Shown in pieces: positions 8,907 through 60,329 of a stretch of DNA of 64,000 bases. The stretch is taken from positions 29,196,858-29,260,857 of the forward strand of contig OX387190.1 of NCBI GenBank assembly GCA_947561395.2, given 5' to 3'. The notes beneath the pieces are model-generated. The model was not told the origin of the DNA. It saw only the letters and a program-made list of their open reading frames with translations, and did not search any database. The position numbers and the translations under genes are program-made. Positions within the stretch are counted from its first letter, which is position 1. Every line of letters starts with the position of its first letter. This DNA is from Buxus sempervirens. Lineage: Eukaryota > Streptophyta > Magnoliopsida > Buxales > Buxaceae.

Positions 8907-9398
8907 ATGGAGCAAGAGTCACAGAAAAGGGAAGTCGAGGACACTGGCTGCCAGACGTCGAACGCTCCTATCCTCTGCGCAAACAACTGCGGATTCTATG
9001 GAACTGCTGCAACCAACAATCTCTGCTCGAAATGCTACAAAGAGTTATTTTCCAAGCCATTCAAGGCTTCCATTGATGAAATGTTTGTAGAGAAAAAGGT
9101 GGATGAACCAGTTACTGAAACAAAGGGCCTGGTCGGCGAGGATGAAGGAGCTAAATCCACTACTAGTGAGGAAGGAACCACTTCTGAAGACCCAGGAAAA
9201 CAAACCCCCAACCGTTGCAGTTTCTGCAGGAAGCGTACTGGATTGACTGGATTCAAGTGCCGATGTGGGCACACATTTTGCTCTCAGCATCGCTACTCCG
9301 ACAAGCACAATTGCTTGTTTGATTACAAAAGTGCAGGGCAGGATGCTATTGCAAAGGCAAATCCAATTGTCAAGGCCGACAAGGTTGATAAGATCTGA
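8907..9398 (+). CDS. A20/AN1 zinc-finger stress-associated protein (SAP)
   Basis: Intronless coding exon of 163 residues, a typical SAP length. The N-terminal A20 finger has Cys24, Cys28, Cys40 and Cys43 (Cx3C-x11-Cx2C). An acidic, Ser/Thr-rich linker (about residues 60-100) follows. The AN1 finger has Cys104, Cys107, Cys118, Cys120, Cys125, His128, His134 and Cys136. In plants such proteins bind ubiquitin or act as E3-like regulators in abiotic-stress responses; that role is family knowledge. The ATG at 8907 is preferred to the in-frame one at 8862 because the family begins MEQES/MAQES-like just before the A20 finger and because 8862 lies in the probable 5'-UTR intron. The gene has its own TATA box and is divergent from HISN4. 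Confidence 0.95.
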   Translation: MEQESQKREVEDTGCQTSNAPILCANNCGFYGTAATNNLCSKCYKELFSKPFKASIDEMFVEKKVDEPVTETKGLVGEDEGAKSTTSEEGTTSEDPGKQTPNRCSFCRKRTGLTGFKCRCGHTFCSQHRYSDKHNCLFDYKSAGQDAIAKANPIVKADKVDKI

Positions 9399-37688: not shown

Positions 37689-40600
37689 TCATATATATAT
37701 TTTTTCACCATCTTCCTCAGAAATCAGGGCGTCTATCCGGCGGAGCAATAAATCAAAATTATCTTGATTCTTGATTAGGCTGAGACGCACATAACGTTCT
37801 CCAGCATAGAAGCGGCTACCTGTACGCCCAATGATGCCTGAGGCTTTGAGGACTGCCGTGCAATCTTGGTCCTCCTCCCTTTCACACTTTAACCATGCAT
37901 AAGCTGCCATGAAAAGTTTTCATGTGCTATAACCTTGTTAGTAATGAATTTAGTTAATGTCTTCTTGCTCAAAGAAAGCCTTTGAGATGAATTGTTTTGG
38001 GTCTCAAGCAAAATGTACCTGGAGAAGGTCCTTGGATCTTTTGAAAGTAGTTGCAGTAATGCTGTGGGAGTTCCTGGATGGAGAGATATTTTGAGACTGC
38101 AAAGCTCTTGCTTAATTTCTCCCATCGATTCCTCATCGTTTGGTACCCAAATTCAAATATGTCCCTTCCTCCTCTCTTAAGAATTACTTTAAGAAGCTTG
38201 AGAGCTCTTAACTGCGTCTCATGGGGAACAATGAGTATGTTCATCTTGATATATTTTGACATTATTTGATAAATGCTTTCGTCCCTTATCAGTGCCCACC
38301 TGTGGAATGCTAATAGTGTCATGAATCATTCTATTAGTTTTTAGTAACATTAGGAAGCAATGATGGAAGCAGCAGCAGTGATAGTCATGTTAATAGAATC
38401 TTCCTGTCTTACTCTCCAATCTCAGTTTCTTCCATTCTCAAATTGATTGAAATGCTATTCTCTGAACATAGGAGTTTATAACATGGGTTTCATGAACTTG
38501 GGACTTGGGTTGAGGCATTGGCTACAGATTTTGTATGGTGTCAGACTGTCAGTAACTTGTGACTTTTTGCCTTAGGATACAGGGACTGGGTTCAGAATTC
38601 TGATCTTTCACTCATGGTTACATTGAGGCATGTTCATTAGTAGTAGAAAAAGGATGGTTTTCAAATCAAAAAACTAAACTATATATACACTGTTATTTAT
38701 ATATGATCTAGATAACGTACACCTATAATGGAGGTAGTTATAAGCTTGAAACATGATAAGATTTAACATACACCTACTGAGTACTCCCACCCTATGTCAT
38801 GACACAGGGAATGATATGAAGGATCCGGGGCACCTCCAGAATGATAGCAAAACTTATGGTTTTGGTAACTGCTATTATAATGCTAACTGGGTTGTAAGTA
38901 ATAATGTGTTTTTGGCCCTATGTTACACTTACATCATATATAAACCCCAAATAACAATCCTGAATCCTGATTAGATAGTGTGAAAGCCATCATAGCAATA
39001 GAACTATTTGTCTACTAAAATGTACAGCACATTATAAGATCAATAGCAGAAACAGAATAATATAGGTAAGATGTGGAAAATACCCGAGTCTGCTGCCTGC
39101 ATGACCAGTAATCTTAGACAATGTGAATATCATAATGTCTTCATCTGCAGGAGCTTGAATTGCTGTAAAATGAGGCCAGTAATAGGCATAATCGTAGATC
39201 GTGTTCACGTTAGGGCCTTTAAGAACTGCCTTCTTGAGTTGACCATCAGGATTGTTCGGTGAATTTACAAATTCAATGAAGTTCGTGGAGGAATCTGTTT
39301 TATTCTTCCACAAAGATGTATCTCCTTGAAACTCAAAATCTACAGATCTGAAGAAATCTGTTTGTAATTGATAAACCTGTCAACAGATACAAACAAAGAA
39401 TCTGTAAATGCTGAGGCAATGACAATTATACTGACATTTGATTATTGATTCTGTTGGTGTGAGAGTGACATCCGTAACCGGATAGTTCAAAACAGGAAGC
39501 CGATCTTTTTTTTGTGGACAGTCTAGTCTCCGGAGTCAGGGGCTACTCTTCGCAATGAATGCAACTGGTATGTATGATAATTAAACTTTGCTTGATGTGC
39601 AGTTCATTTTATTAACCATGCATCAATGATGAACCAAATAAATAGTAGTACTCAAAAGTTTTCAGGACAAACCGGGTAAAAAGGGATTGATGCCACAACT
39701 TTTGTAGGTGAGGATGCATTTTTTATTGAAAGGGCATGAACTGCTGCATTAAGAAGTTGTGTGGAGCCAACGCCAAAGAGAATGAACCTGCCCTCTGTGA
39801 CTGCATTTCCAACGGTTGCATGCAGCATGCGTATGTGCCTAACAATCTCTTCTGAGATGACATCACCATTAAATGTATAACTCATTCTATGCCACCCTGA
39901 TACAACAACTGCGCTATCCTTTGCATTTTGCATCCAAAATGGCTCCAAGAACAACGGATCCCCACTGCAAAAGGTTAGTTACCAAAAAAAAAAAAAAAAA
40001 GACAATTACAAATTCTTCTATAAATGTCAAAATAATTACAAATTTTTACCCAATCATGTATTTAATATTGGACTTCTATTTATCATGTGATGTATATTTT
40101 TATATCAATAGATATTTTGTAATGCTACCAGTGGTAGAAACCTTGGGGCAGGTGGTGGCCAGTGGCGGAACCACCTTATGTTAATTAAAATTTTTTTTTT
40201 CTATATGTTATAATTGAAATTTATATTTTGCCCCCTCTGAAATTTTTAGTTTGCCCCCCTAATTCATTAAAATTTATATATTTCATGAGAAGTGTTAGTT
40301 GAAATTTCTATTTTGCCTCTAAAGATTTGGAGTCCTGGTTGGTGGTGGCCATGGAACCTTTTAATTATTTATTTTTAAATTTTATATAACCACTGGTTAT
40401 TATTATTATTCTTATTTATTTAAAAAAAAAAAAACTTCCTTTGGACACTACCCCTATGTTCTATTGCCATGTTTATACAATATATAATTGTAATTAAAAT
40501 CAGACTAAATATATCTTCCAATAAACTTCGTGAGAAATGACCTTTTTTCTGTGACATGGAGTTGTGACATGATAGATCCAAACTTCTACCTGATAAGGGA

Positions 40601-41955
40601 CTTTTTGGATGGACAACCTTTAATAATAAGCCCATAAAATTACTTTTCTTATGTTTATCAGAAACCTTTCTCATAATAGAAAACATATCTCATGCTATGG
40701 ACTTAAAACTTTGATATGATATGGGATATACGGTGAATTTTGTTGGAGAAATGTATTTTTCATAAAATTTCAATAAAACAAATAAAGAAAAGAATTAAGA
40801 GGTTGACACCAATCCACTTCGAGATAAGAGGCGGCATACTTATTTTTAAAAAATGTAGTGAAGTATTGGGAGTACCCACGGCCATTGTCAACGATAATGG
40901 TTAGAATATTAAATAATGCTCTATGGCGTATGTGATGATGTCAAGTACTCTGCATCCCTATAGGATGGTGACCTTTTTAACATATTTTCTCTTCTTAGCC
41001 AGAAAATTACAACCTTGAAATTTTAGGTTGGTAGAAAACTGGAAGATTCCGGAAAGGAATCTTTTGGAGAAGAATGGAGACAAAACCATCAATTTTTCTT
41101 TTTCTTATTTTTTTCTCCAATAAAAAAGTTGAGGAAAAGAAAGCATTTATTTCAAATCTTGAAGGTTTCCGAGATGAGTAGGAAACATCCATTTCAATAC
41201 ATGGTCAAAGATCCCTATTGCTTAATTAGGGTTCTTAAGCTGTATGGTGCAATCAGAATAATACCAGAAAACCCAACTGAATCAGGAATTCAGTAATTCA
41301 TCAGGTTTGAGACATGGCTCTTTTCTAGCACATGAAGCAATGACCAGACCAATCCAGACAGCTTCCTAACAAGTGATTTCGTGGTTAATATACATGGATA
41401 ATTTTCCACCCCACTAAATCCTTTTCATTAAACTTTAATAGATTTTGTTAATCCTTTGATAGTTTTCAACTTCTAAATGGGAAATGTTTTAGATTTTCAG
41501 TTACAGGAGAGATTCTTCTTCCATGTTGCAAAGGTCTGTTGAGTTGGAACTCAGTGAGATTTGGATCAAACAGGAGTAGAGATGATAAGAGGGATTCTTA
41601 AAAGATTTCAAGTGTTCAGTGCCTGAAAAGTCTATGTAGAAAGCAAGCATGTAAAAGATGCAAATGGTTTTTCTTACCTATCAACATCTGCAGGACACCC
41701 AGGAAGGAATTCAGAGCAATCAGGGCCTGAGTAACAGGAGTGGCACTCACACACAGGTCTCCCTTCCACCAACAAACCATCCAAGTAAGCATGGCCATGA
41801 CCAGAGCATGAAATAGCTGCAACCCTCTCAGCTTCAACTGCAGCCTCTCTACTCCAGCTGAGCTCCCACTGGCGATGGAGGATCACACTGAGCAACAACA
41901 TATTAAACATGATAGACACAGATACAACATACCTTAATCCATGGATCTTAGCCAT
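37689..41955 (-). CDS. TAR/alliinase-family PLP aminotransferase with EGF-like domain
   Basis: Five exons (41955-41678, 39964-39673, 39376-39084, 38299-38019, 37903-37689) give 1359 nt, 452 residues plus stop, with consistent phases and GT-AG sites. Residues 6-26 form a hydrophobic signal/anchor. An EGF-alliinase domain follows with Cys50, 69, 71, 74, 80 and 87. The fold-type I aminotransferase domain starts at about residue 95 (GDPLFLEPFW). NSPNNPDG (228-235) and YDYAYYWPHFT (251-261) are co-factor and substrate motifs, and Lys278 in TLSKITGHAGSRLGW is the Schiff-base lysine. Members include Arabidopsis TAR proteins (tryptophan to indole-3-pyruvate, auxin synthesis) and alliinases (C-S lyases). 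The EGF-like domain points to the TAR3/TAR4 type, whose substrate is less certain. The gene looks intact. A 5.8-kb palindromic insertion sits 89 bp upstream of the ATG. Confidence 0.93.
40140..40345. repeat. Transposon-like dispersed repeat fragment in TAR intron 1
   Basis: Contains CAGTGGCGGAACCACC followed by two TTTTGCCCCC-type segments and AAATTTCTATTTTGCC, a texture common in degraded plant transposon ends. TAR intron 1 (39965-41677) otherwise holds only AT-rich DNA. Family not determined. Confidence 0.35.
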
Positions 41956-42018: not shown

Positions 42019-42743
42019 GAATCTCTGCAAGGGGTCATATTTTCAGTCGATTTCCTCTACGAGGAAATCCTCTTTCGATTCGTCTTCGGAGCGCCGGGTG
42101 ACGACACGCGTCCCACCCGGTCCCACTCCTCATCAGCTCAGAGGAAATTGGCTGGCTCCGGTTTTTGAGCCAGCCAATTAAACATAAGTTAATTAAACAC
42201 AACGTTCTCGTTGTGTTCATGCTTAGCTTCTAAAGTCAAACGATCTTGGCCATCCGATCTGCGTACTTTCCATCAACTTACAATCCTTGTGTTCATGGGC
42301 TCCCATGTTGGCTCCTACTTTATAGATTTCACTTTTATAGACGTGTAGGAAAGAGGTGTTTCAAGCTGTTTAATCACTTAGAATTGTATATATATATATT
42401 TTGGTTGACTAAGGCTTTGAGAAGAAGCCTTGTCTCATGCTGAGCTTGAGCTTAATAATTAATTAAACTTGCAAGTGGAGTCTCATTTTTCATTTTTTTT
42501 TAAAAACTCATTTCCTTATCCTGATTGTTCGGAATTTGAGGGGACTGGACTTGGTTATTTTATTCTAGATAATATTTACAATTGCACATTTTTGTAGTAA
42601 AAAAATAATGCCAATTGTTTTTTTTATAAAAAACATTATCATTAACAAGTTTTTTTTTATTTCCTTTTAATTAAGTTCATATATGCAATTATTTTAATCA
42701 AATTTGTAAATTTATAATTGCCCCAGTTAAATAAGCACAAAAA

Positions 42744-43352
42744 GGGGTTGTGAGGACTTGTAACAGGGGTTGTGAGGGACTTGTAACAGGGGTTGTGAGG
42801 ACTTGTAACTTGGGTTGTGTGGACTTGTAACTGGGGTTGTGAGGACTTGTAACAGGGGTTGTGAGGACTTGTAACAGGCTTGTGAGGACTTGTAACTGGG
42901 CTTGTGAGGACTTGTAACAGGGGTTGTGAGGACTTGTAACAGTGGTTGTGAGGACTTGTAACCTGGCTTGTGAGGACTTGTAACAGGGGTTGTGAGGACT
43001 TGTAACTTGGGTTGTGTGGACTTGTAACTGGGGTTGTGAGGACTTGTAACAGTGGTTGTGAGGACTTGTAACTGGGCTTGTGAGGACTTGTAACAGGGGT
43101 TGTGAGGACTTGTAACTTGGCTTGTGAGGACTTGTAACAGTGGTTGTGAGGACTTGTAACTTGGCTTGTGAGGACTTGTAACAGGGGTTGTGAGGACTTG
43201 TAACTTGGGTTGTGTGGACTTGTAACTAGGGTTGTGAGGACTTGTAACAGGGGTTGTGAGGCCTTGTAACAGGCTTGTGAGGACTTGTAACAGGGGTTGT
43301 GAGGACTTGTAACAGGGGTTGTGAGGACTTGTAACAAGGGTTGTGAGGACTT
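42744..43352 (+). repeat. 22-bp minisatellite array, arm 1
   Basis: About 28 tandem units of GGACTTGTAACAGGGGTTGT plus GA. The variable part takes a few forms: ACAGGGG, ACTGGGG, ACTTGGG followed by TTGTGTGG, ACAGTGG, ACTTGGC, ACTGGGC, and a 21-bp ACAGGC form. Runs on the GT-rich strand. Confidence 0.95.
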
Positions 43353-43369
43353 ATACATCTATTGCATTG

Positions 43370-44113
43370 TTACAAGTCCTCACAACCACTGTTACAAGTC
43401 CTCACACCCCCAGTTACAAGTCCACACAACCCAAGTTACAAGTCCTCACAACCACTGTTACAAGTCCTCACAACCCCAGTTACAAGTCCACACAACCCAA
43501 GTTACAAGTCCTCACAACCCCTGTTACAAGTCCTCACAAGCCCAGTTACAAGTCCTCACAAGCCTGTTACAAGTCCTCACAACCCCAGTTACAAGTCCTC
43601 ACAACCCCTGTTACAAGTCCTCACGAGCCAAGTTACAAGTCCTCACAACCACTGTTACAAGTCCTCACAAACCCAGTTACAAGTCCTCACAAGCCCAGTT
43701 ACAAGTCCTCACAAGCCTGTTACAAGTCCTCACAACCACTGTTACAAGTCCTCACAACCCCAGTTACAAGTCCACACAACCCAAGTTACAAGTCCTCACA
43801 ACCCCTGTTACAAGTCCTCACAAGCCAAGTTACAAGTCCTCACAACCACTGTTACAAGTCCTCACAACCCCTGTTACAAGTCCTCACAAGCTCAGTTACA
43901 AGTCCTCACAAGCCTGTTACAAGTCCTCACAACCACTGTTACAAGTCCACACAACCCAAGTTACAAGTCCTCACAACCTCTGTTACAAGTCCTCACAAGC
44001 CAAGTTACAAGTCCTCACAACCACTGTTACAAGTCCTCACAACCCCAGTTACAAGTCCTCACAACCCCTGTTACAAGTCCCTCACAACCCCTGTTACAAG
44101 TCCTCACAACCCC
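43370..44113 (-). repeat. 22-bp minisatellite array, arm 2
   Basis: About 34 units, the same family as arm 1 but read on the complementary strand (GTTACAAGTCCTCACAACCC). It is longer than arm 1 by roughly six units, so the two arms have expanded or contracted independently. Confidence 0.95.
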
Positions 44114-44828
44114 TTTTTGTGCTTATTTAACTGGGGCAATTATAAATTTACAAAGTTGATTAAAATAATTGCATATATGAACTTAATTAAAAGGAAATAA
44201 AAAAAAAAAACTTGTTAATGATAATGTTTTTTATAAAAAAAACAATTGGCATTATTTTTTTACTACAAAAATGTGCAATTATAAATATTATCTAGAATAA
44301 AATAACCAAGTCCAGTCCCCTCAAATTCCGAACAATCAGGATAAGGAAATGAGTTTAAAAAAAAAAAAATGAAAAATGAGACTCCACTTGCAAGTTTAAT
44401 TAATTATTAAGCTCAAGCTCAGCATGAGACAAGGCTTCTTCTCAAAGCCTTAGTCAACCAAAATATAGATATATATATATATATACAATTCTAAGTGATT
44501 AAACAGCTTGAAACACCTCTTTCCTACACGTCTATAAAAGTGAAATCTATAGAGTAGGAGCCAACATGGGAGCCCATGAACACAAGGATTGTAAGTTGAT
44601 GGAAAGTACGCAGATCGGATGGCCAAGATCGTTTGACTTTAGAACCTAAGCATGAACACAACGAGAACGTTGTGTTTAATTAACTTATGTTTAATTGGCT
44701 GGCTCAAAAACCGGAGCCAGCCAATTTCCTCTGAGCTGATGAGGAGTGGGACCGGGTGGGACGCGTGTCGTCACCCGGCGCTCCCAAGACGAATCGAAAG
44801 AGGATTTCCTCGTAGAGGAAATCGACTG

Positions 44829-44849
44829 TTTAACAAGCATCCCATTGGA
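44829..44849. other. 21-bp spacer between the two foldback units
   Basis: The spacer between GACTG (ending 44828) and CAGTC (starting 44850) starts TTTAACAAG and ends CCCATTGGA. It is not palindromic and shows no direct repeat with either outer flank. It therefore does not look like two ordinary target duplications, and its origin is unknown. Confidence 0.85.
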
Positions 44850-45568
44850 CAGTCGATTTCCTCTACGAGGAAATCCTCTTTCGATTCGTCTTGGGAGCGC
44901 CGGGTGACGACACGCGTCCCACCCGGTCCCACTCCTCATCAGCTCAGAGGAAATTGGCTGGCTCCGGTTTTTGAGCCAGCCAATTAAACATAAGTTAATT
45001 AAACACAACGTTCTCGTTGTGTTCATGCTTAGGTTCTAAAGTCAAACGATCTTGGCCATCCGATCTGCGTACTTTCCATCAACTTACAATCCTTGTGTTT
45101 ATGGGCTCCCATGTTGGCTCCTACTTTATAGATTTCACTTTTATAGACGTGTAGGAAAGAGGTGTTTCAAGCTGTTTAATCACTTAGAATTGTATATATA
45201 TATATATATATATATCTATATTTTGGTTGACTAAGGCTTTGAGAAGAAGCCTTGTCTCATGCTGAGCTTGAGCTTAATAATTAATTAAACTTGCAAGTGG
45301 AGTCTCATTTTTCATTTTTTTTTTTTAAAACTCATTTCCTTATCCTGATTGTTCGGAATTTGAGGGGACTGGACTTGGGTATTTTATTCTAGATAATATT
45401 TATAATTGCACATTTTTGTAGTAAAAAAATAATGCCAATTGTTTTTTTTATAAAAAACATTATCATTAACAAGTTTTTTTTTTATTTCCTTTTAATTAAG
45501 TTCATATATGCAATTATTTTAATCAACTTTGTAAATTTATAATTGCCCCAGTTAAATAAGCACAAAAA

Positions 45569-46358
45569 GGGGTTGTGAGGACTTGTAACAGGGGTTGTGA
45601 GGGACTTGTAACAGGGGTTGTGAGGACTTGTAACTGGGGTTGTGAGGACTTCTAACTTGGGTTGTGTGGACTTGTAACTGGGTTTGTGAGGACTTGTAAC
45701 AGGGGTTGTGAGGACTTGTAACTTGGCTTGTGAGGACTTGTAACAGTGGTTGTGAGGACTTGTAACTTGGCTTGTGAGGACTTGTAACAGGGGTTGTGAG
45801 GACTTGTAACTTGGGTTGTGTGGACTTGTAACAGTGGTTGTGAGGACTTGTAACAGGGGTTGTGAGGACTTGTAACAGGCTTGTGAGGACTTGTAACAGG
45901 GGTTGTGAGGACTTGTAACAGGGGTTGTGAGGACTTGTAACAGTGGTTGTGAGGACTTGTAACTTGGCTTGTGAGGACTTGTAACAGGGGTTGTGAGGAC
46001 TTGTAACTTGGGTTGTGTGGACTTGTAACTGGGGTTGTGAGGACTTGTAACAGTGGTTGTGAGGACTTGTAACAGGCTTGTGAGGACTTGTAACTGGGCT
46101 TGTGAGGACTTGTAACTGGGGTTGTGAGGACTTGTAACAGTGGTTGTGAGGACTTGTAACAGGGGTTGTGAGGACTTGTAACTGGGCTTGTGAGGACTTG
46201 TAACAGGGGTTGTGAGGACTTGTAACTTGTTTTGTGTGGACTTGTAACTGGGGTTGTGAGGACTTGTAACAGTGGTTGTGAGGACTTGTAACTTGGGTTG
46301 TGTTGACTTGTAACTGGGGTTGTGAGGACTTGTAACAGTGGTTGTGAGGACTTGTAAC
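45569..46358 (+). repeat. 22-bp minisatellite array, arm 3
   Basis: About 36 units in the GT-rich orientation, with the same variant set as arm 1. It includes rarer forms such as a TTGTTTTGTGTGG unit near 46,230 and a GACTTCTAAC unit near 45,650. Confidence 0.95.
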
Positions 46359-46374
46359 AATGCAATAGATGTAT

Positions 46375-47092
46375 AAGTCCTCACAACCCTTGTTACAAGT
46401 CCTCACAACCCCTGTTACAAGTCCTCACAACCCCTGTTACAAGTCCTCACAAGCCTGTTACAAGGCCTCACAACCCCTGTTACAAGTCCTCACAACCCTA
46501 GTTACAAGTCCACACAACCCAAGTTACAAGTCCTCACAACCCCTGTTACAAGTCCTCACAAGCCAAGTTACAAGTCCTCACAACCACTGTTACAAGTCCT
46601 CACAAGCCAAGTTACAAGTCCTCACAACCCCTGTTACAAGTCCTCACAAACCCAGTTACAAGTCCTCACAATCCCTGTTACAAGTCCTCACAACCACTGT
46701 TACAAGTCCTCACAACCCCAGTTACAAGTCCACACAACCCAAGTTACAAGTCCTCACAACCCCTGTTACACGTCCTCACAAGCCAGGTTACAAGTCCTCA
46801 CAACCACTGTTACAAGTCCTCACAACCCCTGTTACAAGTTCTCACAAGCCCAGTTACAAGTCCTCACAAGCCTGTTACAAGTCCTCACAACCCCTGTTAC
46901 AAGTCCTCACAAGCCCAGTTACAAGTCCTCACAAGCCTGTTACAAGTCCTCACAACCCCTGTTACAAGTCCTCACAACCCCAGTTACAAGTCCACACAAC
47001 CCAAGTTAGAAGTCCTCACAACCCCTGTTACAAGTCCTCACAACCCCTGTTACAAGTCCCTCACAACCCCTGTTACAAGTCCTCACAACCCC
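46375..47092 (-). repeat. 22-bp minisatellite array, arm 4
   Basis: About 33 units in the complementary orientation, ending in the same CCCCTTTTTGTGC junction as arm 2. Single-base variants (for example TTACACGTCC near 46,770) are scattered through it. Confidence 0.95.
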
Positions 47093-47440
47093 TTTTTGTG
47101 CTTATTTAACTGGGGCAATTATAAATTTACAAAGTTGATTAAAATAATTGCATATATGAACTTAATTAAAAGGAAAAAAAAAAAACTTGTTAATGATAAT
47201 GTTTTTTATAAAAAAAACAATTGGCATTATTTTTTTACTACAAAAATGTGCAATTATAAATATTATCTAGAATAAAATAACCAAGTCCAGTCCCCTCAAA
47301 TTCCGAACAATCAGGATAAGGAAATGGGTTTTTAAAAAAAAAATGAAAAATGAGACTCCACTTGCAAGTTTAATTAATTATTAAGCTCAAGCTCAGCATG
47401 AGACAAGGCTTCTTCTCAAAGCCTTAGTCAACCAAAATAT

Positions 47441-47519
<79 letters not shown>

Positions 47520-47867
47520 TCTAAGTGATTAAACAGCTTGAAACACATCTTTCCTACACGTCTATAAAAGTGAAATCTATAAAGTAGGAGCCAACATGGG
47601 AGCCCATAAACACAAGGATTGTAAGTTGATGGAAAGTACGCAGATCGGATGGCCAAGATCGTTTGACTTTAGAACCTAAGCATGAACACAACGAGAACGT
47701 TGTGTTTAATTAACTTATGTTTAATTGGCTGGCTCAAAAACCGGAGCCAGCCAATTTCCTCTGAGCTGATGAGGAGTGGGACCGGGTGGGACGCGTGTCG
47801 TCACCCGGCGCTCCCAAGACGAATCGAAAGAGGTTTTCCTCGTAGAGGAAATCGACTGTCATATTTT

Positions 47868-49093
47868 ATACTCACCTTGCATTGGAACCTGTTATATGGT
47901 TGTCAGTACGTGTAAGATCTATCAGTAATCTGTGGGCCCTGGCACCCTTAATGGCACAGTTCATCAATCATAAGATAAAAGAAAGAGAGAACAAAAAAGG
48001 CTAAAAAAAACTTGATTGAGAAAGACATTTGATTGATTCTTCTCCAAATATTTTTTATAATAGGGTTGGTCAAGATGAATAATGAAATCAATCTAAAATT
48101 AAGTAAGAAAGTGATAATGCTAACTTGACACAACTAATCTATTGTGGGTCCTAATTAAGTTGGCACATAGTTTTGCAGGTGGTGGACCTATAGCAAATCA
48201 ATGGCTTCCCAATCAAGAACTAGACTTTTTCAGAGTAAACTGATCTGGTTTTGATTTACCTGGAAAACTCAACTTTTATATAGGTTAGACATAAAGCAGG
48301 CAATGAGATCAGCCCAAGCACAACTAAACAATTGTAGATCCTGATTAAGTTTGTGGAAATAGTTTTTTTTAAGTGGTTCTCCATGACAATGAAATGGGTA
48401 CCCAATCAAGAATTAGACTTGTCCAGAATCAAACTAATCTGGTTTTGATTTATTTGGAACAAAACACTTTTCCATGCCTTTACAAAGTCTTTGAATAGTG
48501 AAAAATACAAGCTTAAGTTATTAAAGGAACTTGGTCAATGGGAAAATAGATAGTACGTGATCTACTAGAGGCAGATCTGTAGATAAGGAGGTAAGGCCAT
48601 GTCACCATAATTTTCTCAGCAGTGCCACTTGGCTAGAAAGAGGCATCTTTCCTTAGCTCATCCAATTGTTCAGGTTTATTAGAACATAACATCTGATAAG
48701 TCAGAGTTAATGTGGGACCCTCTTATGAGAAAATAAAACAAGTATCTCTTCTTAGCAGAAAAAAATAATATAATTTTTGGGGGATTGAGGCCTAATTGCC
48801 TAACAACAAAAAAGGTAACTTATGCTATCATGGATCTAGGGAAGATTTCTTATGGATCCATCTTCAATTTTTGAGCTTTAGGGTTTTTCATTGTTTAGCT
48901 GTTGGCCACAAACTATCGATATGTTAGGGCAAATAATTATTTGCCTTTTTTTTTTTTTTTCTCTTTTTTCCAAATTTGTAGTGGACTTTTTGTATTACTT
49001 ATTGTGCTCTCCCTAGAGTGCAAAAAAACAATTTGAATGAAAGCTATAAGTTTCTCCAATTTGGCTTATTGCCATTCTAGATCTATATACTAT
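47868..49093. other. Intergenic with a diverged tandem duplication
   Basis: No gene seen. Two roughly 150-bp segments (about 48,128-48,275 and 48,321-48,465) are diverged direct copies. Both contain CACAACTAA, CCTAATTAAG or CCTGATTAAG, CCCAATCAAGAA and CTGGTTTTGATTTA in order. Before the foldback insertion this DNA adjoined the TAR core promoter. Confidence 0.6.
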
Positions 49094-49098: not shown

Positions 49099-49611
49099 TG
49101 TTAGAATAAACACATTTTTCTAACTTTGTATATAAGTCGGTTTGTATATGAGTCAGTTTAGTGAGTCAAAAGAAGTTTTGTAAAAGTCAAAAACTAGTGG
49201 CTATCTCAGTTAGGTCGGTTTTGTATGAGTGAGGTTTTGTAAAAAGTCAAAAACTAGTGGCTATCTCAGTTAGGTCAGTTTTGTATGAGTGAGGTTTTGT
49301 AAAAAGTAAAAAATAGTGGCTATCTCACTTAGGTCGGTTTGTATAGGGCGGTTAAGCATGTCTATAAAAAGGCATAGAGAGTTCATTTGTAACAACTAAG
49401 ATATCTAAAGGGTCACATAACCCCTAGATATCAAGTGATAGAGATGCATACTCTATTACCAGTTATGTGAGAGATACGTACTCTCACTTTATGTAAGAGA
49501 GACATGGGCTCTCAACCCCGTTATTGTATCAGAGACACAGGCTCTCAATATTACTATCAATATCAATGTTATCAACACCTCTCTTGTGTTTCATCTTAAA
49601 TATTTCTAACA
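49099..49611 (+). mobile_element. Solo LTR (513 bp) with 5-bp target duplication
   Basis: Starts TGTTAGAATAAACAC and ends TATTTCTAACA, so the ends are short inverted repeats (TGTTAGAA/TTCTAACA). It is flanked by TATAT at 49094-49098 and 49612-49616. It has a TATA box (TCTATAAAAAGG at 49361) near the 3' part, and three diverged tandem copies of a roughly 60-bp unit (about 49,160-49,335) upstream of it, as in LTR U3 regions. No second copy and no internal region are present, so it is a solo LTR; superfamily not determined. Confidence 0.85.
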
Positions 49612-50604: not shown

Positions 50605-50972
50605 TGATAGGGACGTACAAGAATGCATGGCTTATCTTTTACAATCTGTTATGCAACGGCCATGCAAAACCAAGCTACAGTTGTGGTTGTTTGATCTTAT
50701 CTAAAATATCTTTTAGATATGCTTATCTTTTATTTAGTTCTATCCTAGAGGATTAGCCTATCCCTTTTTAGTTGTTTTCTGTTAATAGATCTCCATGATA
50801 GGAGGAGGAGATCATCAATAAGTAGTGGAGTTGTTTTGTAAACTCGTCATGTCTTGAATGAAGTTAGTTCTTGTGGTTAACGTCCAGTAAAACGTTAATG
50901 TTATTGTGGTTAACGACCAGCAATTCGTTTCTTTCCTAGTTTGAATACTCATTTGATAATTGGATCCTAACA
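50605..50972 (+). repeat. 5' LTR of the Reina-like element
   Basis: 368 bp, beginning TGATAGGGACG and ending GGATCCTAACA (TG...CA). It matches the reassembled length of the 3' LTR exactly. Differences seen are G/A in the GTTGTGGTTG segment and C/T in the CATGTCTTGAATG segment. Confidence 0.95.
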
Positions 50973-50974
50973 TT

Positions 50975-50986
50975 TGGTATCAAAGC
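50975..50986 (+). other. Primer-binding site (initiator Met tRNA type)
   Basis: TGGTATCAAAGC, two bases after the 5' LTR. It differs at one base from the TGGTATCAGAGC complementary to plant initiator methionine tRNA, the usual Ty3/gypsy and Copia primer. Confidence 0.85.
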
Positions 50987-50998
50987 CAAATCACGAGA

Positions 50999-53900
50999 AT
51001 GGTGAAACGAACTACACAGGAAGTCACCGGAGTTGAGTTCGACCTTCAAGAACACAAAGATCAAACTGACGCTCGCATCGGAGAACTTCAAGAATCTCTA
51101 AAAGAAATGGCGTCCAAACAAGGTGAGTTCCAGAAAACCATATTGGAGGAAATACGGCAATTGAGTGTAGGATCCAAACGACCAATGCATCAAGAAGGGG
51201 AATCATCCGCTTCAAAGAATAATAATCAAGCATATCCTGCCATGACCGTACGACCACTAAAATTGGATTTCCCTTTATTCAATGGGAGCAATCCATTGGA
51301 TTGGGTTTCTCGAGCAGAGAGGTTTTTTCGCTACCATCGTACACCGGAGGAACAGAAGGTGGAAATAGCGTCATTTCATCTGGAAGGTGACGCAACTCCA
51401 TGGATGGATTGGTTTGAAGCCAAACACATATCCAACAACTGGAATGAATTTCTAGATGCCCTTATGAAACGATTTGGGCCACATGGTCATGAAGATTTCC
51501 ATGGTGCTCTTTCTAAACTTCGGCAAGAGAGCTCCATTGAAGCCTATCAAATCGAGTTCGAAAGACTAGCTAGTCGAGCTCATGACTGGACGGATGAGCA
51601 GCTTAAGGGTTGTTTCATTAGTGGTTTACAGGACGAATTGCGACATGAGGTTCGTTCGTTCAGACCGGATTCTTTATCTTCAGCCATTGCTTTGGCTCGA
51701 ATTCAAGACGAAAAGCTCACAGCCCGTAAATTGGCTTCAAGGTGGTCACTTAACAAGCAAACAACCACTACTCAGACCAAAGTTTTTCCTCCGTTAACTG
51801 GTGGTACAGTGATGAACCCCATTAAGACGCAAGTTTCTCCACCTACTACACTTCCACCAATTCGACGGTTAACTCCAGCGGAGGTTCAAGAAAGGCGACA
51901 AAAGAATCTTTGTTTCACATGTGATGAACCATTCCGACCAGGTCATAGATGCAAAAAACCTCAACTATTGTTTATGGAAGAAGAATGGAGTGCAGAAGAT
52001 GTGATTTCGGAAGAACCCATAAGAAATGAAGTAGAGTCAGAACCGGAGGTTGAACCTACTATATCATTACATGCTCTGACTAGTTCTCTTAGACCAGAAA
52101 CAATGCGCTTGCAAGGATTTATTGGCAAAACTAAGGTGACGATACTAATTGATTCAGGTTCGACTCATAATTTTATTAATCCAACCATTGCCAAACGATC
52201 GGGATGTCGAATTGATTCTAAAGATGTATCAAAGATTTTGGTTGCTGATGGGTCTTTTCTCACAACAAATGGGAGAGCGTTGGAGGTAGACTTAAAACTT
52301 CAGAATTATCAATTTTGCACTGATTATTTATTATTGTCTGTTAGTGGATGTGAAGTTGTATTAGGTGCGCAATGGCTGCAATCCTTGGGTTCCATTTTAT
52401 GGAATTTTAAAGACATGTCAATGTCCTTTACCATTGATGGAAAAGTCCATAACCTTCAAGGAGATACCACACCAACAATGCAACTAGCGGAATGTCGGAT
52501 GATGCAAAAAATGCTTAATCACGAACATATCGGGGCGATTGCTCAGTTGGTCAAAACAACTAATGACCAAAGTGATTTGTCTGTCCCTCTAGAGATACAA
52601 ACAGTGCTTGATATATATCCAGACATTTTCGGCACACCAACAGGGCTGCCCCCAAAGCGTTCACATGATCATCGCATACTTTTGATGCCGGGAAAAGCAC
52701 CAACGAATGTTCGTCCATACCGTTACCCTCATTTTCAAAAGTTCGAAATTGAAAAAATAATTCAAGAGATGCTGCAGACTGGGGTTATACGGCCCAGTAA
52801 AAGTTCATTTTCTTCTCCAGTTATACTTGTCAAGAAGAAAGACGGAAGCTGGTGTATGTGTATTGACTACCGTGCCTTAAATGCAATAACGGTAAAAGAT
52901 CGTTTCCCCATTCCGCTGATCGATGAGTTATTGGACGAACTGCATGGAGCAACAATATTCTCAAAGCTGGATTTACGATCCGGATATCATCAGATCCGGG
53001 TTCATGAAGATGATATTTCCCAAACGGCATTCCGCACTCATGATGGCCATTATGAATTTTTGGTCATGCCATTTGGGCTTTGCAATGCTCCATCTACATT
53101 TCAGTCGCTCATGAATGACATATTTCGGCCATATCTGCGCAGGTTCGTGTTGGTATTTTTTGACGATATTCTTATATATAGTCAGAATCTCACAGTCCAT
53201 TTGCAGCATTTAACCATGGTGTTTGATGTGATACGTATCAACCAACTATTGGTCAAAAGGTCGAAATGCATATTTGGACAAAACTCATTGGAGTACTTAG
53301 GCCATATCATATCGGATCAAGGTGTGCAAGTTGATCCAAACAAAATAGAGGCCATTGCAAGTTGGCCTAAACCGAAGACTCTCAAAGGCTTGCGAGGATT
53401 TCTAGGCCTCGCAGGTTATTACAGGAAGTTCGTCAATAACTTTGGAATCATTTCCAAACCACTTACAGAAATGCTCAAGAAAGATTCCTTCCAATGGACT
53501 GAAGCTTCGGAGAAAGCGTTTGATTTACTAAAAAGTGCTATGTCATCTACACCTATCTTGGCTTTACCGGATTTCTCAAAGCAGTTTACAATTGAATGTG
53601 ATGCATCGGGTTATGGGATTGGTGCTGTTCTGACTCAAGATGGCCGCCCTATTGCATTTCTGAGCAAGGCTTTGTCAGGCCGAAATCTGGCATTATCAGT
53701 TTATGATAAGGAAATGATAGCAGTGATTTTTGCGGTACAAAAATGGAGGCCATACTTGTTGGGCCGTCCATTCAAGATACTCACAGATCATCGGACCTTA
53801 CAGTATTTTTTGACCCAGTGTATCTCCACTCCGAATCAACACAAATGGCTTATTAAATTATTGGGATACGACTACTCAATTGAATATAGGAAAGGAACTC

Positions 53901-55408
53901 AAAATACTGTTGCTGATGCACTATCAAGACGTAAAGAAGATGAAGATGGTTCTTTATTGGCTATTTCTGGACCTATTTTTTCGATCATGGATGATCTCAA
54001 ATCAGCTTGTTATAATGATCCGGATCTTTCTCTTATTATTCGTCAATTGCAAGACAATAATTCTTCCCAATTGGTTTACTCACTTCGTGATGGATTTTTG
54101 TTATACAAAAATCGTTACATGGTTCCTCCTTCCGGCCAATGGCGAACCATATTGTTACAAGAATTTCATGCATCCCCCATCGGTGGACATTCCGGATTTT
54201 TACGCACTTATAAGAGATTAACTTGCAATTTCTTGTGGCCCGGAGTGCGAAAGGAGGTGAAACGTTTTGTAGCAACTTGTGATACTTGTCAACGCCAAAA
54301 TTATGAAGCTATATCTCCACCAGGGTTATTACAACCGATTCCCATTCCTACAGAAGTTTGGCTTGATATTTCAATGGATTTTATCGACGGACTTCCGCCA
54401 TCCGCTTCAAAGAACGCCATTCTTGTTGTGGTAGACAGATTTACTAAGTATGGCCATTTTATTGCTATATCACATCCATACTCGGCTTCACATATTGCTG
54501 AAATATTTATTCGTGAGGTTTTCAAGTTACATGGCATGCCTCGTTCCATCATCAGTGATCGGGACCCAGTTTTCGTTAGCCAATTTTGGGAGGCTTTTTT
54601 CAGCAAACAAGGTACTCAATTATGTCGAAGTTCTGCATATCACCCTCAATCGGATGGTCAGACGGAGGTGTTGAATCGCACTTTGGAACATTATCTACGT
54701 TGTTTTACCGGTGATAAGCCCTCTAGTTGGAGTCGTTGGTTACCATGGGCAGAATGGTGGTATAATACAACGTTTCAGAGTTCCATTAAAATGTCTCCTT
54801 TTGAAGCTTTATACAACCGACCCCCTCCTATTATAGCATCATACCTTCCCGGTTCAACTGCGGTTCACATGGTCGATAATGTCTTACGAGATCGAGATGA
54901 GACTATTCGGTTGCTCAAACAGAACCTCTTTACATCTCAAGCCCGAATGAAATTGTTCGCGGATCGTCATAGGACTGAATGAAGCTTTGAAATCAATGAT
55001 TGGGTGTTCTTACGTCTTCAACCTTACCGGCAACAAACTCTTGCTACTCGTGTGATCCACAAGTTATCTCCACGGTTCTACGGCCCCTTCCAAGTGTTAG
55101 CTAGAGTAGGACCGGTGGCTTATAAGCTGGCATTACCGGACTCATGTAAGATTCATCCAGTCTTTCATGTTTCTCTCTTAAAGAAGAAACTTGGTGAACA
55201 CATACAGGCTTCACCAATTTTACCACCTATAGCTGATTCGGGGAGCACTTCTTGGGTTCCAGATAAAGTGTTAGAGCGTGGAAGTTTTAAAAGAAATAAT
55301 CAAGCTGTTACTCGTTTACTCATTCAATGGGAAGGCCTGCCAACTGAAGATGCAACATGGGAAGATGCCAATGATATTTTCACAAGGTTTCCAGATTTCA
55401 CGGCATGA
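50999..55408 (+). pseudogene. Gag-pol polyprotein of the Reina-like element, one in-frame stop
   Basis: One frame of 1470 codons, broken only by a TGA at 54980-54982. Order of domains: Gag (DWVSRAERFF... at about 51,290), a zinc knuckle (CFTCDEPFRPGHRC, about 51,912), and aspartic protease (LIDSGSTHNF, about 52,145). Reverse transcriptase follows, with LDLRSGYHQIRV and an FFDD active site near 53,157. RNase H (ECDASGYGIGAVL) is at about 53,595. The integrase HHCC zinc region is at 54,165-54,295, with catalytic Asp in MDFIDG (about 54,375) and SDRDPVF (about 54,555) and Glu in GQTEVLNR (about 54,660). The chromodomain (LIQWEGLPTEDATWED, about 55,320) closes the frame. The stop falls between integrase core and chromodomain, so the product would lack the chromatin-targeting part. 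The ATG at 50999 is preferred because the earlier in-frame ATG lies inside the LTR. Confidence 0.95.
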
Positions 55409-55422
55409 GGACATGCCGTTTT

Positions 55423-55436
55423 GAAGAAGGGTGGAA
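55423..55436 (+). other. Polypurine tract
   Basis: GAAGAAGGGTGGAA directly before the 3' LTR, the plus-strand priming site of the element. Confidence 0.85.
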
Positions 55437-58400
55437 TGATAGGGACGTACAAGAATGCATGGCTTATCTTTTACAATCTGTTATGCAACGGCCATGCAAA
55501 ACCAAGCTACAGTTGTAGTTGTTTGATCTTATCTAAAATATCTTTTAGATATGCTTATCTTTTATTTAGTTCTATCCTAGAGGATTAGCCTATCCCTTTT
55601 TAGTTGTTTTCTGTTAATAGATCTCCATGATAGGAGGAGGAGATCATCAATGTAACACTCCGGAATTTTGAGAAACTTAAATTAAGATTAATTAAAATTA
55701 TTAAATAAGAACAATAGAGGATTAAAATTTATTTGGTTTAAATTGGTTCAGTTGGTTATTGGTTTAATGGGTTATTGATTAGTTTAGTGGTTTATTATTT
55801 GGAGTTGGTTCAAGTTTAAGTGAACCGGTTCAATGGACCAATGGTTCATTGGTTCATTGGTTAAAAAAAAAAAAAAACAAAACAAAAGTTATTGACGATT
55901 TATGATTTGGGGGTTTTGTGTTTTGTTCGTTAGGTTTAGAAGGCAACGAATTAAGAGCAAAACCAGGGGAAAAGTAGAAGAAGGGATTGCTGGAGGAAGA
56001 AGAAAGAAAGGGGAAGGGGAAAGAAGAAGGGTTCGTCCACTTTGGGTTTTCGTGAGGAGCAGAAGAAGAGGGGACGAATCGTGAGGAGCAGAAGAAGAGG
56101 GGAAGAAGAAGAGAAGAGGAAGAGAAGGGGACGCTTGTTGGGGGATTAGCCGCAGAAGAGAAGAAGGAGAAAAGAGAAAGAAGAAAGGAGGAAGAAGAAG
56201 AAGAGGAGGAAGAGACGGGTTGGTCGCTGGTCGTTCGTTGAGGGCTGGCAGAATAAGGGAGAGAATGAGGGTTTGGGCGTAGATTTGCTCAATCGCAAGT
56301 AAGTAGCATTTTTCTCGTTCGATCTACTCTTGTTTAATCTTTTTCTTTTATTTCTGTTTGTTAGAGAAATTACTGTTTGGTTCGATTGACTCTTGGTTGG
56401 TTGTTTTTAAACTTGGCAACATGCTTTGATTTCTCTTCTCGTTGCCGTCAACAGATTTTTGATTCGTGTTTGATTTCTTTTGTTCGATTATTGTGTGATC
56501 TTGGGAATTGTTGGAATCAAAATGGAGATGGAACCACACGAAAATTGAAGGTTTTATATTTATTTGGATGGAGTTTTATTGTTGTATTTCCATATTAGAT
56601 TTGCTAATGGATGGTGGGGGTTTCTAAAATTTTAAATAGGATATAGGTTAGAACTGTTGATGCTGTATTTTCAGATTTTGAATCTTGAAAAGCATATACA
56701 ATGATTGAAGTTGCTATTTTTGGTTTTGGAATCGAAGTAAGGTTAGGTTCTGATTGGAGTTGCTTGAAATACTCTGATTGAGTTACCGTTAGGGTAGGAG
56801 TTTGATAGTAAGAATTTATTCTCCAAATTCTGCCTAACTATTAGATACTGATAGTGTAGGAATTGCTGTTAGTTGTTTAATCGGAGTTGCCGTTAGTTGC
56901 TGTTAGCATAGGAATCAAATCTGATGACTTCTGTAAATGGCGGCTGTTAGGTAAATGTCAGTGATTGCATTGTGATGCTTAGATGTTAATGGACGTTTAC
57001 CGGTTGTTTAGAGGTTAATGGACGATAATAGATGTTAATGGATTTCTTGCTTCTGAAGATTTGACAGGGCGATTCAAAAAGAGGTTTGCATGGATTAGGA
57101 GTAGGAAAAGAGGTAGATATGTATTAGGAAATTTCATGTTGAATAGGTACAATTTTGAAGTTTTAAAGCAAACCCATTCTGTTATCTGATTTTAAACTGG
57201 TGTAAGATTTCGGTGGCTTGCGAAGGCTAGAAATCTTCGCGTAAAAATTCATATTAGCATTCTAAAATTTAATTTAGGGTAGTTGTAGTTGAATGGAATT
57301 GGTTTGGGACCAATCAGAACTCATGGTATTGCAAGAAAAATCCGGAAAAATGGATGATTTCCGTTTATTAGAATTCGCGGCTGTTTTAAACCACCTGTAG
57401 TAAAATGGCCGTAAGTTCCTGTAGGAAACTCCGAATGGCGTACCGTTTGTTGCGTTGGAAACTAGAATCATAGGGCTTTCCGATGATGTATAGCACGCAT
57501 ACAAATTCCTTATAGATTATATCAGGTGAAATATTCAATTAACTAGTTAAACTCAGTTCTGCTGAGTAAACAGCAACTGCAAATCAACCATGGATAAATT
57601 GTATTGGTATTATCCGAACATGAAATTGATCTATTTCTAACTTGTGTTCGAAGGTGGTTTATAAAAGGAATTGAGATTGTAATTGGAAATTGAAGAGGTT
57701 TCTTGTTCGTTGAGAAAGGCAATGAGCCTATGGCATCCCGAAAGGCAGAATGGCCTAGGGATTTAAGGGCAAGTGAACAGCGAGGTTCACTTGGATTGAA
57801 TTTTACTTTGGCAGTTGATTTTGTTACAAGTTTTGTTTAGTCAAATATTTGCATGGTTAATTATTATACGAGTCTAGGCCGTATAGAGTTGGTCGTGGAT
57901 CCACAGTCCGTCTAGCTTGTGTGTTAGTGATGACTTGTCGAGTTAACACCCAGGGCCACATGCGCTACCACCGTGTGGGATCGGTGAGGCTCTCTTGTGG
58001 GATGGAGGGCTGCGGCAACCCGTCCGCCGTGTGGGATCGGCGGGGTGTGTGTACGAGTGTGTATGTGTGTATGTGTGTGTGGGTGCGTGTGTGGGTTGTT
58101 TCCTTGCCAGCCCATGCGTGGGTGCTCCACTCCGGGCGAGGACCCTGATCAGGCTCGAACCGTGAGTCGTGAGGTGGCAAACCGGCTGAGGGGTGGTTGT
58201 CTCGATTTATAGAATCACTAATCCATGAGTTTTGTACATATACTTTATGCTGACATTGTAGGTTGGTGTATCCTGATTTTATCTGTTCATTACTAGTATT
58301 GTGTAAATGATAATGAACTGCTTATTCGTATGATTTGGATATAGATTTATCGTATGATATGTTAGCATGTTATTTCATTAGTTTAAAGTTGCATAAACAG

Positions 58401-59095
58401 TTTTATATCATGTATGTGCTACTTACTGGGACATTAGTCTCATCCGTGTTTTGGATTTATCGGTTTTGTTTTAGATTCTGCTCGTGAGCCGCATACTGGG
58501 GCAGAGTATCAAGGGGGATCCGGAGTATCGGCAGAAGGATCACTACCCCGGCTAGATCTATAGAAGGAAAAATATTTATTTTTAGATAGTTGTAAAATTT
58601 GTTTTGAATATTGTATGTTGTAAATGATGAGAGAGAGAGAGAGAGAGTGTGTGAAGCTTAGTAAATCTTATTCATAGATCTATACAGTTGGATGAGTTAG
58701 TTCTTTTGAATGAATATATAAACTGTGTTTATTAGGTGATTGTTTGTGGTTTGAGGGCTTAGCCCATACTCGTATGTACAGGCGTTATATAGCCGTTTTT
58801 CCGAAAAAAATTCTAGGGTGTTAATTTTGTGTCTGGTTAGTTCTTGAGTTAGTTTTTACTACACTTTGGGCCCTAAGCTAGCGCCAAGGAGCCAATATAA
58901 ACCTGATACGGGTGGACCTGGTTCCGGGGTGCTACAATCAATAAGTAGTGGAGTTGTTTTGTAAACTCGTCATGTTTTGAATGAAGTTAGTTCTTGTGGT
59001 TAACGTCCAGTAAAACGTTAATGTTATTGTGGTTAACGACCAGCAATTCGTTTCTTTCCTAGTTTGAATACTCATTTGATAATTGGATCCTAACA
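55437..59095 (+). repeat. 3' LTR of the Reina-like element, split by an insertion
   Basis: 55437-55650 and 58942-59095 are the two parts (214 and 154 bp, together 368). They align to the 5' LTR without gap once the insert and one copy of ATCAA are removed. Confidence 0.95.
55651..58936 (+). mobile_element. 3286-bp solo-LTR-like insertion (Del/Tekay type) nested in the 3' LTR
   Basis: Begins TGTAACACTCCGG and ends CCGGGGTGCTACA, nearly exact inverted ends with TG...CA. It is flanked by ATCAA at 55646-55650 and 58937-58941, a 5-bp duplication as made by LTR integrases. No gag or pol is found. The TGTAACAC start and large size resemble LTRs of the Del/Tekay chromoviruses. It contains an AGAAG-rich stretch (about 55,965-56,215), a TG-rich stretch near 58,045-58,095, and a GA repeat near 58,629. 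A non-autonomous element with unusual structure is the alternative. It inserted after the Reina-like element. Confidence 0.75.
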
Positions 59096-59100
59096 AATTG

Positions 59101-60329
59101 TATGGGGGTCAATACTTTTAAGGATCTGGTTGCAGGTTATAAATTTTGCTTTGGGAACTTTTCATTCTAGGTCTTTGCCAATTTCTCCGGATGCCACGAA
59201 ATTGAATGAATGGTTGAATTGAATGATGCTTTGATGATTAGATGTTTCTTAAGTCCTATTGATGTTAGTGAAATTGAGATATTGGAAGCGTTTTTGAGAA
59301 ATTTTCCTGACTTATGATAGAGATCAAGCATGGACTTTAGGTTCTTTAGATGGAATCGATGATGAAGATATGAGATTTTAAGGTATATGAGACTTTAGGT
59401 TCTTCAAAACTGGTTCGTTTTTTGCCCAAATAAGGACTTTTCTCTAGTTAAAAATTGTATAAAAAGTTATTTATACATTCTGAACTTTTATTACTATGAT
59501 ATATCAAGACGGGTATGCAAAATTTTATGTTTACACCTCCCAAATGAGGTGTTTATTCGAGAAACTCTGTTGCTTGTTTCGGTTTACAAGGCCCTGAAAT
59601 ATCAATTTTGTGTTAAACTTAGCTTTGGAAAATATTCTTTTTATTAATAATTTCGTGAATAAGGGCTGGTTTATCTCAAATGCAGATTTGTGGATTTCCG
59701 TCATATTTATTTAAAGAAAATAAATAAATACTTTGGAAGAGCTTTCAGTCCTCAAGTAACTTGGAAGAAGTAGCAGCTTAACGAAGCGTATGAAGAGTAT
59801 TTTGATAGGCAAACCCAAAAATAAATGATAACACATTAAACAAGCCAAAGCAAAAATAATAAATGCACATAGTAAAGTTGTGTGGAAATTACACAAGAAA
59901 GTAGTCTTTTTTTTTCAATTTCATTTGTTGCAAGTCTCTGTACTTTCGATTGAATATTATGTCTCTTTCATATAAATTATACAACATGGGTTCAATCACT
60001 CATAGCAATTAAAAATAGACTTTATTTCTGATAATTGGCCTCTTTTATTTTGTTAGCAGCTTTGGATATAATACTCTTTCTTCAACCCCAAATAATAATC
60101 AAATATATACATGATTTTCATCTACTTTTAGTGTTCATATCCTTTTGAAGTAATCCCAGTGAACATGCTGAATAGTTGCTTTGAGAAATGCTTAATCAGT
60201 ATTTTCTGTGGTTAAAGTTTTAGTTATATAAAAAAATTGCTATAAGAAATGATAGTTGTTAGTTGAAAAAAAAATCCATAATTGTGACTCAACTATTCTC
60301 TTTTCTATGTAGATTATGAAATTTGAGAT
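59101..60329 (+). other. AT-rich region before the RPA-like gene exons
   Basis: No coding feature recognised. Sequence at 59,096 onward continues the sequence before 50,605, since they were joined before the retrotransposon inserted. It may be the remainder of an intron. Confidence 0.4.

Follow-up and report, generated by a model that had tools for sequence, protein, structure and literature searches.

The window, a stretch of 64,000 nucleotides of Buxus sempervirens DNA, contains at positions 42044-47858 two foldback units in opposite orientation with a 21-bp spacer between them. The pair is enclosed by a 9-bp target site duplication and adjoins an alliinase-type gene. The features are listed below by position in the window.

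37972..41955, minus strand: alliinase-type gene, exons with PF04863 and PF04864
42035..42043: left 9-bp target site duplication, TCATATTTT, perfect
42044..44828, plus strand: foldback unit 1, 2785 bp
42044..42742, plus strand: arm 1L, non-array part, three hairpins
42743..43352, plus strand: arm 1L array of 22-bp monomers, 28 units counted
43353..43367: loop of unit 1, between its two arrays
43368..44114, minus strand: arm 1R array of 22-bp monomers, 34 units counted
44115..44828, minus strand: arm 1R, non-array part
44829..44849: spacer, TTTAACAAGCATCCCATTGGA, 21 bp
44850..47858, minus strand: foldback unit 2, 3009 bp, inverted copy of unit 1
44850..45567, plus strand: arm 2L, non-array part, homologue of arm 1R
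45568..46359, plus strand: arm 2L array of 22-bp monomers, 36 units counted
46360..46374: loop of unit 2, inverted relative to that of unit 1
46375..47093, minus strand: arm 2R array of 22-bp monomers, 33 units counted
47094..47858, minus strand: arm 2R, non-array part, homologue of arm 1L, with the longest TA tract
47859..47867: right 9-bp target site duplication, TCATATTTT, perfect

A first-pass annotation of this DNA had described two complete foldbacks lying head to head around a 21-bp non-repeated spacer, and this is borne out by the exact coordinates and by the motif CAGTCGATTTCC at all four ends. The motif occurs exactly four times in the window, once per unit end; with up to two mismatches allowed there are 12 occurrences, against 3.9 expected by chance. 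The spacer TTTAACAAGCATCCCATTGGA is not repeated in the window, even with up to five substitutions allowed. No further member of the family was found there either, as BLAST of unit 1 against the remainder of the window gave only matches of 15-40 bp, the best of them 33 bp (E 2e-6) and inside a TA tract. The exact 24-bp terminal pattern had no matches in viral and prokaryotic contigs, a search with little bearing on a plant element.

Both units have the build of a foldback, in that long inverted repeats form most of the element around a short loop and the arms are multi-domain with tandem repeats (the 22-bp arrays). Two other identities for the element were rejected. No known structured RNA family matched at gathering thresholds across the whole window, and none of the 15 open frames of 90 aa or longer that overlap the element matches a Pfam family at E 0.001, which rules out coding arms. 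The first ATG of the alliinase-type gene is at 41955, with the element 88 bp upstream of it, and a TATA-like sequence of this gene is found downstream of the foldback pair, a position that leaves an effect on gene expression open to testing.

Hairpin arms and inverted homology of the units

In each arm, a non-array stretch of 699-765 bp contains three hairpins and is followed by 28-36 monomers of 22 bp. DNA folding covered arm 1L alone of the four and gave -47 kcal/mol for its first 187 nt, compared with a shuffle mean of -19.6 (z -8.7; reached by 0 of 200 shuffles). The two inner hairpins are exact in all four arms and the terminal hairpin in three, that of arm 2R carrying one substitution. 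The monomer arrays (28, 34, 36 and 33 units in 1L, 1R, 2L and 2R) were absent from the first-pass annotation.

Unit 1 aligns with the reverse complement of unit 2 at 98.1% aligned-base identity with 14 gaps, and with unit 2 as it stands at 97.3% with 18 gaps; each unit is also close to its own reverse complement (97.3% for unit 1, 97.5% for unit 2). The loop is found in both units in inverted orientation. The units are inverted copies of each other, loops included, and the self-complementarity described in the first-pass annotation holds at all three levels: the hairpins in the arms, each unit, and the pair. The 98.1% identity given above rules out chance symmetry.

The non-array parts of the arms are nearly equidistant, with 4-8 differences per 698 columns (columns gap-free in all four arms, with length differences in the TA tract and poly-T excluded), so that these parts are by themselves silent on which arms are homologous; the arms are about 99% identical. 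The order of the monomers separates left from right arms. Arm 1L paired with 2R scored +20 and 1R with 2L +11, values reached by 0 of 1000 permutations, whereas the remaining four arm pairs scored -4.5 to -1.5, which 1 to 8 of 1000 shuffles reached. As these remaining pairs also beat most shuffles, all the arrays are related and the distinction between left and right is a matter of degree. By monomer order, in which 1L corresponds to 2R and 1R to 2L, the second unit is a genuine inverted copy of the first, and internal symmetry mistaken for inversion is ruled out.

The arm alignment has 12 variable columns, of which 527 and 528 lie at a homopolymer edge and are possibly alignment noise. From two shared characters, the arms of one unit seem to exchange sequence by gene conversion. 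Because conversion blurs arm divergence, we claim no age for the element. The order of monomer variants offers a bar code for tracking exchange between foldback arms.

Target duplication and probable movement of the pair

The 9 bp of TCATATTTT are identical at the two outer ends (9/9), whereas the inner flanks TTTAACAAG and CCCATTGGA share 1 of 9 bases with each other and 2 of 9 each with the outer duplication. The target duplication therefore stands on the outer ends only, as had been noted in the first pass. At the lag of 5824 bp a 9-mer is common to both positions at only 2 of 58,167 positions in the window, and both are overlapping readings of the TCATATTTT duplication, starting at 42034 and 42035. 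A 10-base match is possible, the G that precedes the left TCATATTTT being the same as the last base of the element, but the symmetric CAG...CTG ends are compatible with a 9-bp duplication only.

The locus has two transposon copies, and the DNA between them, inside one target duplication, which is the structure of a macrotransposon. At a probability of roughly two in three, and on the evidence of this one locus, we infer that two copies of one non-autonomous foldback were inserted here as a single unit. The absence of TCATATTTT from the start of the spacer indicates that the pair probably formed elsewhere and was inserted here by its outermost ends. At the donor site, a foldback would have lain beside its own inverted copy, the two being separated by 21 bp that came from the host or were filler. 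A transposase acting in trans, most probably a Mutator-like one, would then have used the two outermost of four equivalent ends; CAGTCGATTTCC is exact at all four, so any pair of ends could serve. The whole 5.8 kb would have been carried along and inserted just upstream of the alliinase-type gene, giving a single 9-bp duplication. Movement of the pair as a composite had been proposed in the first pass, and it is still the best reading of the outer-only duplication, the unrelated inner flanks and the non-local spacer, with a single copy as its basis. As for how the pair arose, the spacer can be read as two 9-bp duplications, one per insertion, plus 3 bp; two insertions 12 bp apart are tentatively preferred to an inverted duplication of the unit in the donor locus. 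The spacer could also be filler DNA from repair at the present site, which would count against composite movement.

It is distinctly unlikely that a single unit was inserted and then doubled on the spot as an inverted copy, through faulty repair or template switching in the wake of transposase cleavage, the junction being 21 bp of filler. Such an event would account for the one duplication outside the pair and for the units being inverted homologues without movement of a pair, and composite structures in maize arise, in the account given there, by re-replication and repair after alternative transposition (PMC4270019). It predicts TCATATTTT directly after unit 1, however, where TTTAACAAG is found. 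With inner flanks matching TCATATTTT at 2 of 9 bases, the duplication would have to be lost exactly at the unit end and non-local filler added, and both inner ends are intact down to the final base.

Palindromes with tandem arrays are difficult to assemble, and two alleles or separate single-unit insertions might have been wrongly joined head to head. The sequence makes this very improbable. Unit 1 (2785 bp, 28/34 monomers) and unit 2 (3009 bp, 36/33 monomers) are unequal in size and monomer content and are further set apart by private substitutions and by the length of their TA tracts, so that neither is the mirror image of the other; the join contains a 21-bp sequence that occurs once in the window, and both outer ends reach the same TCATATTTT duplication. 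Foldback and MULE elements can cluster, and the spacer is long enough for two 9-bp sequences, yet two separate insertions at the present locus whose inner duplications have since been lost or mutated are hardly credible, as unrelated outer flanks would be expected in place of the 9/9 outer and 1/9 inner matches between arms about 99% identical.

More speculatively, and with rather low probability, the composite may belong to a propagating family, a palindrome of two palindromes present in many copies with the same 21-bp spacer. Its four equivalent ends would let a transposase move either unit or the pair, and gene conversion from arm to arm would keep the ends alike. With the spacer as a tag, a genome search could separate a one-off from a self-propagating composite.

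Transposase and related elements

The first-pass annotation had invoked a Mutator-type transposase acting in trans. The 9-bp duplication is compatible with this proposal, as are the length of the arms and the position close to a promoter, but no transposase was found in the window. None of the 65 window ORFs of 90 aa or more has a MULE domain, in keeping with a non-autonomous copy; the Pfam scan took stop-to-stop frames of this size. Like MULEs, the element has long terminal inverted repeats, its arms measuring 699-765 bp without the arrays, and a Mutator-like transposase acting in trans probably moved it. A non-MULE enzyme, for example of P or hAT type, seems unlikely as the mover, and would concern the enzyme only, being compatible with composite movement. 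In its favour, the window lacks a transposase and the CAG...CTG ends are not diagnostic. hAT elements make 8-bp target duplications, which argues against that type here. Foldbacks are a structural class, and Galileo is given a P-type transposase in the part of PMC3169594 that treats it, but the 9-bp duplication, arms far longer than 300 bp and a position at the 5' end of a gene fit MULEs as these are portrayed in PMC9168764 and PMC12312487. MULE target duplications are put at about 7-12 bp, 9 bp being usual, in the relevant text of PMC9168764 (9 bp also in PMC3169594), and that at this one locus is 9 bp.

The statement in the first-pass annotation that no named family has this design was too strong, as tandem-repeat foldbacks, MULEs with extra TIRs, head-to-head MULE pairs and macrotransposons have each been described. 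Foldbacks, multi-TIR MULEs and macrotransposons are already known and the present arrangement is a new variation on them; searches of an open-licence literature collection turned up no case of two whole foldbacks, paired head to head, moving together. Closest in arm structure are Tetris of Drosophila virilis (PMC4079207) and Tm1 of Meloidogyne (PMC3169594), which, as their descriptions go, share long multi-domain arms with internal tandem repeats, are represented by non-autonomous copies and are placed by their authors in the Mutator superfamily. The same descriptions give target duplications of 8-10 bp for Tetris and 9 bp for Tm1 (9 bp here) and repeat units of about 220 bp and about 14 bp, respectively (22 bp here); in the portions concerned, a head-to-head pair moved as one was not found. 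MuTAnT of Medicago (PMC4486113) is likewise a plant foldback-type MULE with palindromic arms, but these are about 144 bp long and it targets TA microsatellites. FARE of Arabidopsis is also of this kind, by description only, in the mentions made of it in PMC4486113 and PMC3169594.

Multi-long-TIR MULEs, including those of tomato, have four or three long TIRs in one element, which is flanked by a duplication although none can be recognised next to the internal TIRs (PMC3310237). As in types 1 and 2 of that study, external and internal TIRs are alike here over at least 100 bp and the duplication is on the outside only. In most of those elements (48 of 61 in tomato) tandem TIRs make up the ends. 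Here no such tandem arrangement occupies both ends; the inner arms are placed back to back in mid-element around the spacer, and whole units with their loops are doubled.

To our knowledge, VANDAL21 is not a foldback. An inverted head-to-head MULE pair with a spacer of about 200 bp is formed by VANDAL21 in Arabidopsis Tsu-0, where alternative transposition was proposed and a circular spacer detected by PCR (PMC12312487). The pair is described as a source of rearrangements, and movement as a unit was not found in the sections of that paper dealing with it. In the maize Ac macrotransposons and composite insertions, two linked elements and the DNA between them act as one transposon with a target duplication at the outer ends, and excision and reinsertion were observed, going by the accounts in PMC9910405 and PMC4270019 (reinsertion of Ac macrotransposons in PMC9910405). 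According to the same accounts, these are hAT elements with 8-bp duplications that enclose kilobases of host DNA, and are not palindromic foldbacks.

Macrotransposition and the resulting rearrangements have been studied mainly for Ac/Ds. In Drosophila, DNA between two FB elements has been moved, a precedent and not evidence for the present case. The locus described here is a natural case of two inverted foldbacks with a 9-bp duplication at the outer ends only, and suggests that such pairs can be moved whole by what is probably a Mutator-like transposase.

Structure of the double foldback

The first-pass annotation had described the element at 42044-47858 as two foldback units placed head to head around a 21-bp spacer, and this layout was confirmed.

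Components of the double foldback
42044-44828, unit 1, 2785 bp
44829-44849, spacer, 21 bp
44850-47858, unit 2, 3009 bp

The unit ends each carry CAGTCGATTTCC, which has four exact matches in the window. The 9-bp sequence TCATATTTT borders the whole pair on the left and on the right. The proposal that only the outer ends bear a target duplication also held, as TTTAACAAG and CCCATTGGA, which flank the inner ends, agree with each other at one of nine bases and, individually, with the outer duplication at two of nine. A 9-mer is shared at a lag of 5824 bp at only 2 of 58,167 window positions, both of which are overlapping readings of the TCATATTTT duplication.

The left and right arms of unit 1 (1L, 1R) and unit 2 (2L, 2R) open with non-array sequence of 699-765 bp, whose lengths differ mostly through TA and poly-T tracts. 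Three strong hairpins occur within the first 187 nt of 1L, a stretch that folds as DNA at -47 kcal/mol (mean of the shuffles, -19.6; z -8.7; 0 of 200 shuffles). All four arms have the inner two hairpins in exact form; the terminal hairpin is exact in three, a single substitution in 2R disrupting the match there. Farther inward, a 22-bp monomer (AGGGGTTGTGAGGACTTGTAAC and its variants) is arrayed in 28 copies in 1L, 34 in 1R, 36 in 2L and 33 in 2R, and a short loop connects the two arrays within each unit. A higher-order period of ~197 bp was detected by TRF (43369-44112) in the arrays of 42743-47093, so that blocks of about nine monomers have themselves been duplicated.

Orientation of unit 2 and possible exchange between arms

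Unit 1 and unit 2 each almost match their own reverse complement (97.3% and 97.5% of aligned bases, respectively), and therefore symmetry alone cannot decide the orientation of unit 2. Identity peaks when unit 1 is compared with the reverse complement of unit 2 (98.1%, versus 97.3% for the direct comparison), and the order of the monomers gives a clearer answer. Monomer variants were letter-coded and the arm orders aligned, with significance assessed by 1000 permutations. The 1L-2R pair scored +20 (permutation mean -7.5) and the 1R-2L pair +11 (mean -8.1), values reached in none of the 1000 permutations in either case; rare variants next to the loop are also common to 1L and 2R. This homology identifies unit 2 as an inverted copy of unit 1, as had been claimed. 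Scores for the remaining four arm pairs ranged from -4.5 to -1.5 and were likewise above most of their shuffles (reached by 1 to 8 of 1000), as would be expected were all four arrays related.

Alignment of the non-array arm parts gave 698 gap-free columns, 12 of them variable, with pairwise differences at 4-8 sites. Summed differences are 12 for the within-unit pairs (7+5), 12 for the homologous cross-unit pairs (8+4) and 14 for the remaining pairs (7+7), so that in these parts the four arms stand at almost equal distances from one another. At column 251 the unit 1 arms both have C and the unit 2 arms both have T; the variant CTTCTAAC occurs in the fourth monomer of each unit 2 arm and is absent throughout unit 1. 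These two characters suggest gene conversion, with sequence exchanged between the arms within a unit; the outer arm parts would then have been homogenised, with an older left/right difference retained in the arrays.

Origin of the pair

The object is real and well formed and, at this one locus, is best read as a foldback macrotransposon. From its sequence we prefer composite movement: the two-unit pair would already have existed before its arrival here, its outermost ends would have been used in the movement, and insertion of the whole would have produced the single 9-bp duplication. The spacer may be read as 9 + 3 + 9: the first nine bases would be the right duplication of one insertion and, after three more, the last nine would be the left duplication belonging to a second insertion 12 bp away. 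This reading predicts what the donor site should look like and is not a result.

Insertion of a single unit followed by doubling in place has an outside chance of being correct; it predicts TCATATTTT directly after unit 1, where the sequence in fact starts with TTTAACAAG. An assembly artefact is unlikely, given that the units differ in length, in the number of monomers, in the lengths of their TA tracts and by private substitutions. Separate insertion of two units is highly improbable, as each would carry its own duplication and the outer flanks would not match, whereas they do.

For composite movement, the mover was probably a Mutator-like transposase, judging only by duplication length, arm length and position. 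No Pfam family was matched by any of the 15 open frames (90 aa or longer) that overlap the element. Across the window, none of the 65 stop-to-stop ORFs of this minimum length showed a MULE or other DNA-transposon transposase family, and the mobile-element domains present are exclusively those of retrotransposons.

No second family member was found elsewhere within the window. Among the titles and abstract openings listed by searches of an open-licence library, none described two complete foldbacks, placed head to head, that had moved together, which is weak evidence of absence. The double foldback is a novel arrangement of already known kinds, and its interest would be notably greater if the same double unit and spacer occurred at further loci.

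Neighbouring gene and other features

A minus-strand gene has its ATG at 41955, and the pair sits 88 bp upstream of this start codon. The exons of the gene show matches to the alliinase EGF-like (PF04863) and alliinase C-terminal (PF04864) families; genes of this type are tryptophan aminotransferase-related (TAR). The genes present in the window suggest that the DNA comes from a plant. A TATA-like run, TATATATATATAA, is located between the element and the ATG, ~25 bp from the element. VANDAL MULE insertions are reported in PMC12312487 to prefer 5' UTRs.

Other features of the window
6245-6799 (-), retroelement remnant, RNase H-like match (RVT_3)
8823-9395 (+), A20 and AN1 zinc-finger families in one frame
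18202-18549 (+) and 24522-24824 (+), zinc carboxypeptidase (Peptidase_M14) pieces, the second weak and below the Pfam cut-off
25251-25703 (+), retroelement remnant, weak zf-RVT match below the Pfam cut-off
48129-48265 and 48319-48459, direct repeat (76% identity; region 48129-48459) immediately to the right of the insertion
49175-49344, 60-bp tandem repeat
50605-55651, Ty3-type LTR retrotransposon

The 215-bp LTRs of the Ty3-type element (50605-50819 and 55437-55651) are 99.5% identical. A stop-to-stop frame of 1340 codons comprises gag, protease, reverse transcriptase, RNase H and integrase, and the next frame (54983-55405) contains SH3_Tf2-1 and chromo domains. The 167 bp at 58937-59103, 3.3 kb past the 3' LTR, are 97.6% identical to 50814-50980, just inside the 5' LTR.
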